Of a DNA stretch of 64,000 bases, positions 8,191-11,682 are shown piece after piece. Under the pieces are notes generated by a model, which was not told the origin of the DNA, did no database searches, and saw nothing but the letters and a program-made list of their open reading frames with translations. Each line of letters starts with the position of its first letter. Position 1 is the stretch's first letter. The DNA is from Acidobacteriota bacterium (GTDB taxonomy: Bacteria > Acidobacteriota > Blastocatellia > Pyrinomonadales > Pyrinomonadaceae), in contig JAIVJM010000012.1 of the NCBI GenBank assembly GCA_020199995.1, forward strand, positions 29,644-93,643, in the 5' to 3' direction. A program made the position numbers and the translations under genes.

Positions 8191-8844
8191 ATGTCCTGGC
8201 CCGGAGATTATTTCGTGTCATCGAGCGTCGAGCCGTGGCGGATGGACGAGCTGTGGGCCGAGGGCTGGAGGCACTTCGGGGTGCTCTTCTTCCGCGACCG
8301 CAAAACTTCTTACGGCGGGCGGCGCTGCTCCGTGATGCCGCTGCGCGTCGAACTCGAACGGTTCACGCCCTCGCGCAGCCAGAGGCGCGTCCTCGCGAGA
8401 AACAGCGACGCGGAAATCCGCATCGGCGAGACCTTCATTGACCGGGAGAAGCGAGACCTCTTCGAGCGGCATAAGAGGCGCTTCCATGAGGCCGTCCCCG
8501 ACTCGCTCTACGACTTCCTCTCGCACGCGCCCGCGTCCGTGCCCTGCCGCAATGTGGAGATTTGCGTCTCCCTCGGAGGCAGGCTCGCCGCCGCGAGCTT
8601 CCTCGACGTGGGCGAGTCCGCGACCTCAGCCGTCTACGCGATGTTCGACCCCGAAGAGTCGAAGCGGAGCCTCGGTATTTTCACGATGCTCGTCGCCATC
8701 CGTTACTCGCTCATTCTGGGCTGTCGTCACTACTACCCCGGCTACGCCTGCCGCGAGCCCTCGATCTACGACTACAAGAAGAACTTCGCCGGCGTCGAAT
8801 ACTTCGACTGGCGCGGAGTCTGGGGGCCGCTCGACGCAGCGTGA
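8191..8844 (+). CDS. arginyl/leucyl-tRNA-protein transferase-like (Ate/Bpt-like) protein
   Basis: VELERFTPSRSQRRVLARNSD ... LGIFTMLVAIRYSLILGCRHYYPGYACREPSIYDYKKNFAGVE resemble Ate/Bpt C-terminal region. Confidence 0.7.
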   Translation: MSWPGDYFVSSSVEPWRMDELWAEGWRHFGVLFFRDRKTSYGGRRCSVMPLRVELERFTPSRSQRRVLARNSDAEIRIGETFIDREKRDLFERHKRRFHEAVPDSLYDFLSHAPASVPCRNVEICVSLGGRLAAASFLDVGESATSAVYAMFDPEESKRSLGIFTMLVAIRYSLILGCRHYYPGYACREPSIYDYKKNFAGVEYFDWRGVWGPLDAA

Positions 8845-9105: not shown

Positions 9106-9633
9106 CTAGAACGACACGCTGTAGTTCATGCCGGGATTGCGCCCGCGCTCGAAAATGATTCCGAACTGGTGCCGACCGCGCGTGTAATTCGCGGTCGGAT
9201 GGATGCGCACGCCGTCGAACAGAATCGTTGACGACCAACGCTCCGCGAAGTTGATATTTAAGCCGCCGATAACTCTCAGGCGGTCTTCAAACGTCCCGTA
9301 AGCGATGCCCGCGTACGGCGCGACCGGCAAGCCCGTCGCGTGCTTGAGGTTCTTGCTCAACGTCGCGTAGAACGACTGACCGGAGGGCGTGCCTATCCGG
9401 TCTGAGCTGGTGCCGAGAATCAAAGCGGGACGCACGTGCGTCTCAGTGAGCGCGACGACATTTGCCAGCGGCGACACCTTCCCGGCGAGCGGGTTGTATT
9501 CGACCCCGGCGGTGAATCGCGGGTGAAACCTGTAGGTCAGCGTGTTGCGCCATTTCGCGCGGTCAATCACATTCGAGACGACGCGCACGCCGTACGTCCA
9601 CTTGTCTGCATCCTGTTGCTCTGCCCCGCTCAC
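9106..9633 (-). CDS. hypothetical beta-strand-rich (outer-membrane-like) protein
   Basis: alternating aromatic strands, terminal F (MNYSVSF); no obvious signal peptide. Confidence 0.55.
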   Translation of the reverse strand: MSGAEQQDADKWTYGVRVVSNVIDRAKWRNTLTYRFHPRFTAGVEYNPLAGKVSPLANVVALTETHVRPALILGTSSDRIGTPSGQSFYATLSKNLKHATGLPVAPYAGIAYGTFEDRLRVIGGLNINFAERWSSTILFDGVRIHPTANYTRGRHQFGIIFERGRNPGMNYSVSF

Positions 9634-9660: not shown

Positions 9661-10587
9661 TCAACTCGGAACCGTAGATGCCTCACCCGGTTTCTGTCTG
9701 ACCGAAGCCGTCTGCTCGCGCTCGCGCTTCGAGTCGCGGGCCGCAGTCTTTTCGCCGGCGGCGAGCATCGCGTCAATCTGCTTTTTCAGCTCGGCCTGAT
9801 TGACGATGCCGGAGACGACTTTCGCGACGCGCCCGTCCCTGCCGATGATGATCGTGCCCGGCAGGGCCGCGCCTAAACCGAAGCGCATCATGTCGGCTGT
9901 GGTCGCGCCCGTCCAGACGGGAAAGTTGACTTTAGTTTCTTTGACGAACTGCAAGACCTTCGCGCGGTCTTCCACCGCGTCAGCCGAAGCCCCGACGACC
10001 TGCACGCCGAGGGCCGCGTACTCGTTCTGAATCGCCGCGAGGTCGGGCATCTCCTTCCGGCAGGGCACGCAGTACGTCGCCCAGAAATTGAGGACGACGA
10101 TGCGCCCCTTGAGCGCGCCGAGGCGCTGCTCAGCGCCTGAGAGGTCTTTGAGCGTCAACTCTATTTCCTTGCCGACAGCGTTCGCCGCTTCCTGTTCCGC
10201 GAGGCTCGGCGCAAGCACCTCCAGAGCATCAACGCGAATCACGTTCGCTTTCTTCTTCTTCTGGACTGTGCCGGTCGCGGCGACGCGCTTGCCGACGAAC
10301 TCCAGCCAATTCTTTCCGGGAAGGCGGAACTTCCCTTGCTCAAGCTGGTAGAGCGTGAACTTGTCGCCTTCACGGACGGCAATCAGCGTAGGGTCGCCGT
10401 TCGCAACGCATGATTGCGACTTCAACAAATCTTCCGCCGTGCCGTATTCGACTTTCGTCCTGTCAGCTTCGGCCCAACAGTCGGCGCAGCACACGACCTG
10501 TCCTTCGAGCCTGACCGCGCCCGCCTGCGCGTTCGCCGCCGTTGCGAATGAAGCCAGCAGTAAGAGACACCAAAACAGATTTCGCAT
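9661..10587 (-). CDS. TlpA/ResA-like thiol-disulfide oxidoreductase with extra N-terminal Cys-rich domain
   Basis: NFWATYCVPCRKEMPDLAAIQNEYAALGVQVVGAS; signal peptide; N-terminal VVCCADCW. Confidence 0.82.
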   Translation of the reverse strand: MRNLFWCLLLLASFATAANAQAGAVRLEGQVVCCADCWAEADRTKVEYGTAEDLLKSQSCVANGDPTLIAVREGDKFTLYQLEQGKFRLPGKNWLEFVGKRVAATGTVQKKKKANVIRVDALEVLAPSLAEQEAANAVGKEIELTLKDLSGAEQRLGALKGRIVVLNFWATYCVPCRKEMPDLAAIQNEYAALGVQVVGASADAVEDRAKVLQFVKETKVNFPVWTGATTADMMRFGLGAALPGTIIIGRDGRVAKVVSGIVNQAELKKQIDAMLAAGEKTAARDSKREREQTASVRQKPGEASTVPS

Positions 10588-10710: not shown

Positions 10711-11133
10711 TTACTGCTTGTGCTTGGCGCAGCAGGAACCGCCCTTGCAGCAATCCGCACCGGCGGCGCAACAACTCGCGCCGTCTTTGTGCGACGCGCT
10801 GGCCTGCTCTGTGGTCTGCTTGTCGCCCGACTTGTGCGCCGCGCAGCACGAAGCGCCCGCCTTGCAGCACGAAGCGCCGTCCTCACAGCAGCTCTCCTTG
10901 TGGTTGGTCTTCGACGCCTGCGCGTTCGAGTGTTTGTGGTCGGCCTGCTGGACGGCGCAACACGAGCCACTGTCGCCGCCGCAGCAGCTCGCGCCCGAAG
11001 CGCAGCAGCTCGCGCCGGCTTTGTCCATGCTGCATGACATCGCTTTGTTGGATTTGCCCTGATCGTTCGCGGCGTACACGACACCGGTCAGACAGAGGAC
11101 GAGTGTGACGGCAAAGAGTTTGATTCTATTCAT
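10711..11133 (-). CDS. secreted CC-pair repeat protein (putative metal-binding)
   Basis: signal peptide then nine Cys-Cys pairs, mostly GASCC, in three blocks separated by His/Lys-rich linkers. Confidence 0.8.
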   Translation of the reverse strand: MNRIKLFAVTLVLCLTGVVYAANDQGKSNKAMSCSMDKAGASCCASGASCCGGDSGSCCAVQQADHKHSNAQASKTNHKESCCEDGASCCKAGASCCAAHKSGDKQTTEQASASHKDGASCCAAGADCCKGGSCCAKHKQ

Positions 11134-11214
11134 CTGTACATCTCCTGAAATGAGAAAACGGGTATGGCTTCGCCAACGAGCGATTCGTCGGCGTGACTAG
11201 TTAGTGACCCGTTT

Positions 11215-11682
11215 CTAAATCAGGAAGACGCAGCAGCGGAGGTGTGTGCTTCCCCTGTCCGGCACCTGAATCCGGTGGGAAGTAAGCCGTGCGGGTGTGT
11301 GTGTGTGCGGCGTAAACGTCGGCAGACTGCTTGTTTCGACGAGGGGTGCGTCCTTCAGGCTCACCCTGCGGGCGGAGTCTGCGGACTGGCCCGAAAGCGG
11401 GCAGCAGTTACTCCGCGTCGTCTGCCCCGGAGTCCGGCGGACGGTCGAGCTGTCGTCGCCTCTCTCAGCCTTGTGACAGCAGTCGTGTCCCGAAAACGCG
11501 GGGCAGGAATCCACTTGCGTCGTCGCCGACTGCTCCCCGGCAGGGGCGGGGGCGGCGGAGACGACGCCCATTTCGCAGCCCAGGAAACAGCCCACGCCGC
11601 CCAGCCAGAGCACAAGGGCGGCGGCAATAAGGCGGCGAGCAATCACTCGGGTTTTAAAATGCGGCGCGAACATCGAGGACAT
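11215..11682 (-). CDS. hypothetical membrane-anchored Cys/His-containing protein
   Basis: N-terminal TM segment; CPAFSGHDCCHK, NCCPLSG, HLRCCVFLI; same strand as neighbours. Confidence 0.6.
   Translation of the reverse strand: MSSMFAPHFKTRVIARRLIAAALVLWLGGVGCFLGCEMGVVSAAPAPAGEQSATTQVDSCPAFSGHDCCHKAERGDDSSTVRRTPGQTTRSNCCPLSGQSADSARRVSLKDAPLVETSSLPTFTPHTHTPARLTSHRIQVPDRGSTHLRCCVFLI

Follow-up and report, generated by a model that had tools for sequence, protein, structure and literature searches.

A putative metal-sensing leader peptide encoded upstream of exported Cys-Cys-rich proteins, probable copper sponges, in Blastocatellia

Sensing of metals through a nascent chain during its export has so far been worked out for CutF from Rhodobacter capsulatus (DUF2946-like) and CruR from Bordetella pertussis (DUF2946), which belong to one proline-motif family. 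In the model for CutF, the nascent exported chain binds metal outside, the ribosome is held longer by a C-terminal motif lying in its tunnel, and a downstream RNA structure is then opened (PMC9973294). CruR has been shown to sense copper (PMC9426467). Some arrest peptides are known to depend on an A-site stop codon (PMC10987492), and growing chains reach the translocon when they extend about 45 residues beyond the peptidyl transferase centre (PMC7886326). A published survey of proteins like CutF used two criteria, a PP motif within the last 15 residues and a length below 150 aa. Here we describe a pair of genes from a member of the Pyrinomonadaceae, found in a 64,000-nt stretch of DNA (the window), in which an exported protein rich in Cys-Cys (CC) pairs, gene B, is directly preceded by another ORF, gene A (Table 1). 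We are moderately confident that gene A is a translated leader controlling gene B, which would act as a periplasmic Cu(I)-thiolate buffer; the stalling, the metal sensing, the sign of the response and the choice of metal are what we infer in this reading.

Table 1. Features of the gene A-gene B locus in the window and leader-like ORFs found at other loci.
Feature	Position	Strand	Basis or context
Gene B: 140 aa, nine CC pairs, signal-peptide-like N-terminus; read from 11133 down to 10711, start codon ATG	10711..11133	-	ORF and translation, relatives
Gene B signal-peptide-like N-terminus, residues ~1-22	11068..11133	-	sequence
Gene B CC block 1 (CC at 43, 50, 58)	10957..11007	-	
Gene B CC block 2 (CC at 82, 89, 96)	10843..10890	-	
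Gene B CC block 3 (CC at 121, 128, 134)	10729..10773	-	
Gene B Shine-Dalgarno (SD) sequence AGGAG	11142..11146	-	sequence; kept across loci
P1 (closing stem) 3' arm, ACCCGTTT	11156..11163	-	pairs with 11207-11214; pairing test, pair counts
Inner hairpin P2, CGCCGACGA..TCGTTGGCG	11171..11193	-	MFE fold, compensatory changes
P1 5' arm, AAACGGGT, immediately 3' of the gene A stop	11207..11214	-	fold, class-wide pairing test
Gene A: putative translated leader/nascent-chain sensor, 155 aa	11215..11682	-	directly upstream of gene B
Gene A C-terminal motif THLRCCVFLI, candidate arrest or slow-termination signal	11218..11247	-	codon usage, identity profile
Candidate sensor Cys pair, gene A residues 93-94, 62-63 residues before the end	11401..11406	-	
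CDF cation-efflux transporter, short form, 217 aa	11706..12359	-	PF01545, 1.2e-16
TlpA/ResA-like thiol-disulfide oxidoreductase, N-terminal CCADCW domain	9661..10587	-	PF00578/PF08534
Unassigned protein after TlpA	9106..9633	-	no Pfam match; homologue in the same place in L009
Leader-like ORF	L083:4406-4810		upstream of TlpA/CCLDCW redoxin
Leader-like ORF	L090:6487-7020		upstream of Met/His-rich 'HEGHDM/MPGM' protein
Leader-like ORF	L097:4590-5222		upstream of Met/His-rich 'HEGHDM/MPGM' protein
Leader-like ORF	L111:8995-9387		upstream of YtkA, then CusA
Leader-like ORF	L127:11606-11998		upstream of outer-membrane efflux protein

Gene B had originally been predicted to encode a secreted protein whose nine CC pairs fall into three blocks of three, and its ORF, translation and CC positions agree with this description. 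The protein starts with M-N-R-I-K, a start that is kept in its relatives, followed by a hydrophobic stretch and an AxA-like end. From residue 23 on, the 118-aa mature chain contains 19 Cys (16%) and 9 CC pairs, whereas 100,000 letter-shuffled versions of the same chain averaged 2.5 pairs and never exceeded 8. It has no aromatic residues, and its only aliphatic residue is one Val. The triplication is also seen in the DNA as three 51-nt copies with a spacing of exactly 117 nt (39 codons). Searches with gene B against Pfam, NCBIfam and PDB sequences gave no match, and an AlphaFold model made with six relatives showed no confident fold (mean pLDDT 43) and no long helices after residue 18, as is expected of an unmetallated metal-thiolate chain.

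A first search of 60 related genomes revealed six relatives of gene B, every one just downstream of gene A. With a profile, relatives were found in 46 of the 162 genomes of the class (E <= 1e-6); they span one class of Acidobacteriota, the Blastocatellia, including the Pyrinomonadaceae. No plasmid-borne relatives were found. The family members range from 62 to 199 aa and from 2 to 15 CC pairs. The 3 x 3 layout, which stands for gene B itself, therefore does not hold as a general design and is one form of a variable CC-pair arrangement. About 80% of Cys residues in the family are located in CC pairs, and CPM/CPL/CxM-type motifs (for example CPMK, CxMG and CxMK) are present in 44 of 57 relatives. 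The profile matches adjoin gene A save in two genomes (loci L152 and L154), which lack gene A there and carry the CC-rich gene B immediately 3' of ychF, a GTPase gene. In the genomes G189, G018 and G497, gene B, divergent or truncated at the end of a contig, is likewise found beside gene A. The best reading of gene B is that of an internally triplicated, exported, putative metal-thiolate protein, a part of the prediction that gains support from the signal peptide, the lack of a hydrophobic core, the CC pairing across the family and the metal-homeostasis genes nearby. The CC-rich proteins are an unannotated kind of exported, putative metal-thiolate protein.

The operon in the window has the order CDF transporter, gene A, gene B, TlpA-like protein and unassigned protein. 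The first four genes are found in the same order at locus L008, and a CDF gene also precedes gene A in this order in L010. The CDF protein of the window ends in a TCCEEGACH tail, which is kept in both of these loci. For the TlpA-like protein, which takes the same position in L008 and L009, the nearest NCBIfam model is ResA, below its cut-off. The extra N-terminal domain of this protein (LEGQVVCCADCWAEADRTKVE...) also occurs on its own at the beginning of L117 and is found again next to gene A loci; it matched no Pfam family apart from a weak similarity to DUF5818. The unassigned product may, as a guess from its sequence, be an outer-membrane barrel. A gene for an arginyl/leucyl-tRNA-protein transferase (ATE_C) is located at 8191-8844 of the window.

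Across the class, genes for copper proteins are prominent near gene A. By hand count, nine genomes from three genera encode CopA (TIGR01511, over the cut-off) no more than 10 kb from gene A, CusA/CzcA (TIGR00914) and YtkA are encoded in L087 and L111, with related genes in L091, and a CopA-type multicopper oxidase is present in L110. Other class-wide neighbours are CDF transporters and PCYCGC proteins. In many loci, a gene for an exported His/Met-rich protein of 480-680 aa (HEGHDMSKMPGM...) lies directly 3' of gene B (for example, L082:5312-7222); members of its cluster occur in 10 loci, and no match to them was found in Pfam or NCBIfam. Since CopA, CusA/CzcA, multicopper oxidase and YtkA recur across the class, copper is favoured, and together with the CPM/CxM-type motifs of the gene B family these neighbours point to it as the likeliest metal. 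The window itself has as neighbours a CDF transporter (a family for Zn, Cd, Co, Ni, Fe or Mn) and a TlpA-like protein and no copper pump, and the CDF gene beside gene A keeps Zn and Cd among the possible metals. The leader and gene B might thus serve Zn, Cd, Hg or As instead of copper, with the CDF driving the window operon. This is compatible with a CDF bearing a TCCxxxACH end directly upstream of gene A in the window, L008 and L010, with CDF genes near others and with the ability of thiolates to bind all soft metals. We consider it unlikely, if worth keeping in mind, because the class-wide neighbours are mostly copper genes and because Met placed beside Cys in many gene B relatives suits Cu(I) or Ag(I). 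Gene B is therefore probably an exported copper-binding sponge, as judged from these motifs and neighbours.

Gene A, which like the structured RNA between the two genes went unnoticed in the original prediction, is closely linked to gene B. In 60 of 67 fetched gene A loci, a CC-rich exported gene B lies directly 3' of it on the same strand, and three of the other seven loci are at contig ends. The distance between the two genes is usually 80-110 nt, and the remaining neighbours differ from locus to locus. Matches to a gene A profile were found in 69 of 162 genomes and 33 of 53 genera of the class, whereas the sample of the phylum outside the class gave a single match (G151), a weak one that is interrupted by a stop and has no gene B with it. 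A scan of GTDB contigs revealed gene A in Acidobacteriota only, including Pyrinomonadaceae and Blastocatellia bacteria. The protein belongs to no known family of Pfam or NCBIfam, and AlphaFold predicts one hydrophobic helix (residues 6-36), with the remainder below confidence. The ORFs as called encode 133-389 aa, lengths that are upper bounds at the N-terminus, since some starts are the first possible codon and several ORFs are probably over-extended.

The gene A family is marked by a fixed distance. A Cys residue, mostly as part of a CC pair, lies 62-69 residues before the C-terminus in 57 of 57 proteins, a collection biased toward this Cys and the C-terminus because both are included in the profile; the model permits indels, and neither the constancy of the spacing nor the stop codon is affected by this bias. 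Over 48 non-redundant sequences, the distance has a mean of 63.9 and a standard deviation of 2.1, compared to 10 for the next CC upstream. The linker between this Cys and the C-terminus shows 8-11% sequence identity, which equals background, and Cys occurs in no more than 4 of the 57 proteins in any 8-residue window from 13 to 60 residues before the end.

The end of the protein is conserved up to the stop codon. All 57 proteins end in x-[FLI]-[LR]-I, mostly with C-V-F-[LR] before the last residue, and this final Ile is encoded by both ATT and ATC. Synonymous codons also vary for the Leu, Arg, Cys, Val and Phe residues of this segment, indicating selection on the peptide rather than on the RNA. 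The stop codon is UAG in 35 and UAA in 22 genes and UGA in none, in contrast to 53 UAG, 101 UAA and 106 UGA in 260 neighbouring genes (Fisher p = 5e-12; here and below, the loci are phylogenetically related and p-values overstate their independence). The base following the stop codon (+4) is A in 41 of 57 genes.

The RNA between the two genes folds more stably than its shuffled versions (mean z -2.4, n = 58). Distant intergenic sequences do not align, and we therefore used an alignment-free pairing test together with hand-placed pair counts. The first 20 nt from the gene A stop pair with the 36 nt preceding the gene B SD with a mean energy of -11.5 kcal/mol, whereas permuting the partners between loci gave -7.9 +/- 0.35 kcal/mol and was as good as the real pairing in 0 of 5000 permutations; the same test with coding segments as a control showed no effect. 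The hand-placed counts for this stem, P1, revealed compensatory changes, one of the sites being the third stop-codon base. The pairs of one group take in the gene A stop, and swaps between UAG and UAA are accompanied by C/U changes in the partner strand. In the inner hairpin P2, double-sided compensatory changes were found at 4 of 8 pairs in an alignment of 6 sequences from close relatives of the window. When 12 distant intergenic regions were aligned with MAFFT, RNAalifold found nothing, and no Rfam family matched the intergenic RNA. A further hairpin, P3, with a pyrimidine-rich 3' arm that would sequester the gene B SD, was drawn by RNAalifold in one genus and was rejected as a general feature, being not above chance across the class: in the A-B pairs, complementarity of the gene B SD to the adjacent upstream bases does not exceed chance. 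Covering the gene A stop in silico raised the accessibility of the gene B landing region from 0.49 to 0.54 (p = 1e-4) and left that of the SD unchanged. Given this slight opening and no sign of direct SD sequestration, the sign of the control is weakly supported in the A-B pair.

The same hairpin could act on transcription rather than on translation, as an intrinsic or Rho-dependent attenuator of the kind known for TnaC or CruR. Its stem follows directly after the leader stop, several loci have U-rich 3' arms, and CruR itself acts through Rho (PMC9426467). On the other hand, a terminator scan of the A-B junction in the window found no intrinsic terminator, the loops are long, and many of the stems are AU-rich, which makes attenuation a rather doubtful explanation.

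Could gene A instead encode an ordinary mature partner of gene B, such as an exported or membrane-anchored chaperone, receptor or anchor, with the RNA tuning expression or mRNA stability? An N-terminal helix, many Cys residues that could bind metal and conservation together with gene B would suit such a protein. We find this quite unlikely: beyond the one helix no fold is predicted, the linker is kept in length and not in sequence, the end is an exact Ile-stop that excludes UGA, and the stop codon lies within a covarying stem. In addition, the two gene B loci that lack gene A fit a regulator better than an obligate partner.

A response to thiol oxidation, or to the Sec/disulfide state of the envelope, with gene B as a TlpA-reduced vicinal-dithiol redox buffer and metal incidental, is very unlikely, since TlpA-like thioredoxins, the commonest neighbours (near 20 loci), also act as reductants in copper-site maturation and fit copper too, and many loci hold dedicated metal exporters and copper oxidases, although peroxiredoxins are encoded near 8 gene A loci and vicinal disulfides can form from CC pairs.

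Under the favoured reading of gene A as a translated leader, gene B would buffer metal, most likely Cu(I), in the envelope through the thiolates of an intrinsically unfolded chain, and the neighbouring TlpA-like thioredoxin would keep its thiols reduced. Gene A would mainly not produce a working protein and would report the presence of metal, or the state of its own thiols, outside the membrane. Its N-terminal helix would target the chain to Sec. When the stop codon is reached, the last 10-16 residues (..RGxTYLRCCVFLI) would occupy the ribosomal tunnel, and at the same moment the Cys pair 62-69 residues back would be just past SecYEG; given the distance of about 45 residues to the translocon, some 20 more would place the ruler Cys at its far side. 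Binding of metal to this pair may alter the dwell time of the ribosome at UAG or UAA. A ribosome at the stop codon would hide the bases that follow it, break P1 and alter initiation at gene B. By analogy with CutF, metal would lengthen the dwell and turn gene B on.

Leader-like ORFs were also identified at other targets. Using a rule derived from the peptide (end [VAISTLM][FLI][LR]I, Cys at 61-69 and no more than one Cys at 13-58 residues), we screened 2793 ORFs from 67 loci with gene A removed. Five ORFs were returned, all immediately followed by a metal or redox gene (Table 1), a yield that refers to these metal-gene-rich loci. The bases after their stop codons are complementary to the SD of the next gene, and in the four ORFs of L083, L090, L111 and L127 this complementarity exceeds that of shuffles (fractions 0 to 0.008). 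In the same four, covering the post-stop bases lifted SD accessibility from 0.01 to 0.35, 0.34 to 0.62, 0.19 to 0.59 and 0.12 to 0.67. The ORF in L111 ends in UGA, so avoidance of this codon belongs to gene A and not to all such leaders. The chances seem evenly balanced that these ORFs and gene A represent a class of proline-free nascent-chain metal sensors with an RF1-type stop, reused across Blastocatellia for different metal genes. The leaders of such a class would be exported, end in ..[VA][FL][LR]I-stop and have their Cys sensor 61-69 residues before that end, and their targets would include CC-rich proteins, TlpA, YtkA-CusA, an outer-membrane efflux protein and Met/His-rich proteins. The peptide rule provides a simple means to find more leaders, and the measurable ruler of gene A would make the geometry of sensing, from the peptidyl transferase centre to the periplasm, open to testing. 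Gene A also ties the CC-rich proteins to a putative control circuit in a large and little-studied soil phylum.

Compared with known metal-binding proteins, gene B resembles the metallothioneins SmtA/BmtA and MymT in being small, Cys-rich and free of aromatic residues, a similarity of composition only. These metallothioneins are cytosolic, use CxC/CxxC motifs and His and are folded on Zn or Cu. Gene B differs from them in being exported, CC-paired, built of tandem repeats and matched by no Pfam family. With Csp1 and Csp3 it shares a large number of Cys residues, which serve Cu(I) binding in the Csps, and Csp1 is exported. Unlike these proteins, gene B is predicted to form no helix apart from its signal peptide. 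Structurally, Csps are four-helix bundles lined with Cys (PMC9484137).

Gene A was also considered as a possible member of DUF2946, and this assignment was rejected. None of 17 gene A proteins matched PF11162, the best score of this model at a gene A locus in a class scan (E 0.068) was under the cut-off, and hhalign gave 1% probability for gene A against the DUF2946 profile. Neither RAPP nor PP is present at the C-terminus of any of the 57 proteins. The same Blastocatellia genomes carry bona fide DUF2946 leaders at other sites (L142-L151), which have CxxC and RAPP; in seven of eight of these yardstick members, 48 residues separate the two motifs.

In their layout, CutF and gene A are alike: both are short leaders, Sec-exported in the case of CutF and putatively so for gene A, with a Cys motif and a conserved C-terminus, followed by a short intergenic region with an RNA stem-loop before the target metal gene. 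In contrast to CutF, gene A has no proline motif, ends in [YH]LRCCVFLI-stop with UAA or UAG only, and carries its putative sensor 62-69 residues before the end. Because the CutF-like survey required a PP motif and fewer than 150 aa, it would have missed the gene A family. With CruR, gene A shares the position as an upstream ORF and a fixed spacing between Cys and the C-terminal motif, whereas the RAPP arrest motif, the CxxC sensor, Rho-dependent termination and repression by copper are CruR's own (PMC9426467). The stop-dependent arrest peptides (PMC10987492) and TnaC resemble the proposed action of gene A in using an A-site stop codon and a parked ribosome to control a downstream gene; they monitor Sec components or tryptophan and have unrelated sequences, and gene A avoids UGA. 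The gene pair thus has a Cys ruler, an invariant Ile-stop without UGA and a covarying stem, and by analogy with CutF and CruR these features of gene A seem to be the marks of a leader whose nascent chain senses metal during export. Gene A appears to represent a sensor-leader family new to the literature and unrelated to DUF2946. If this is true, nascent-chain metal sensing during export has a second, unrelated family, and the principle arose more than once.
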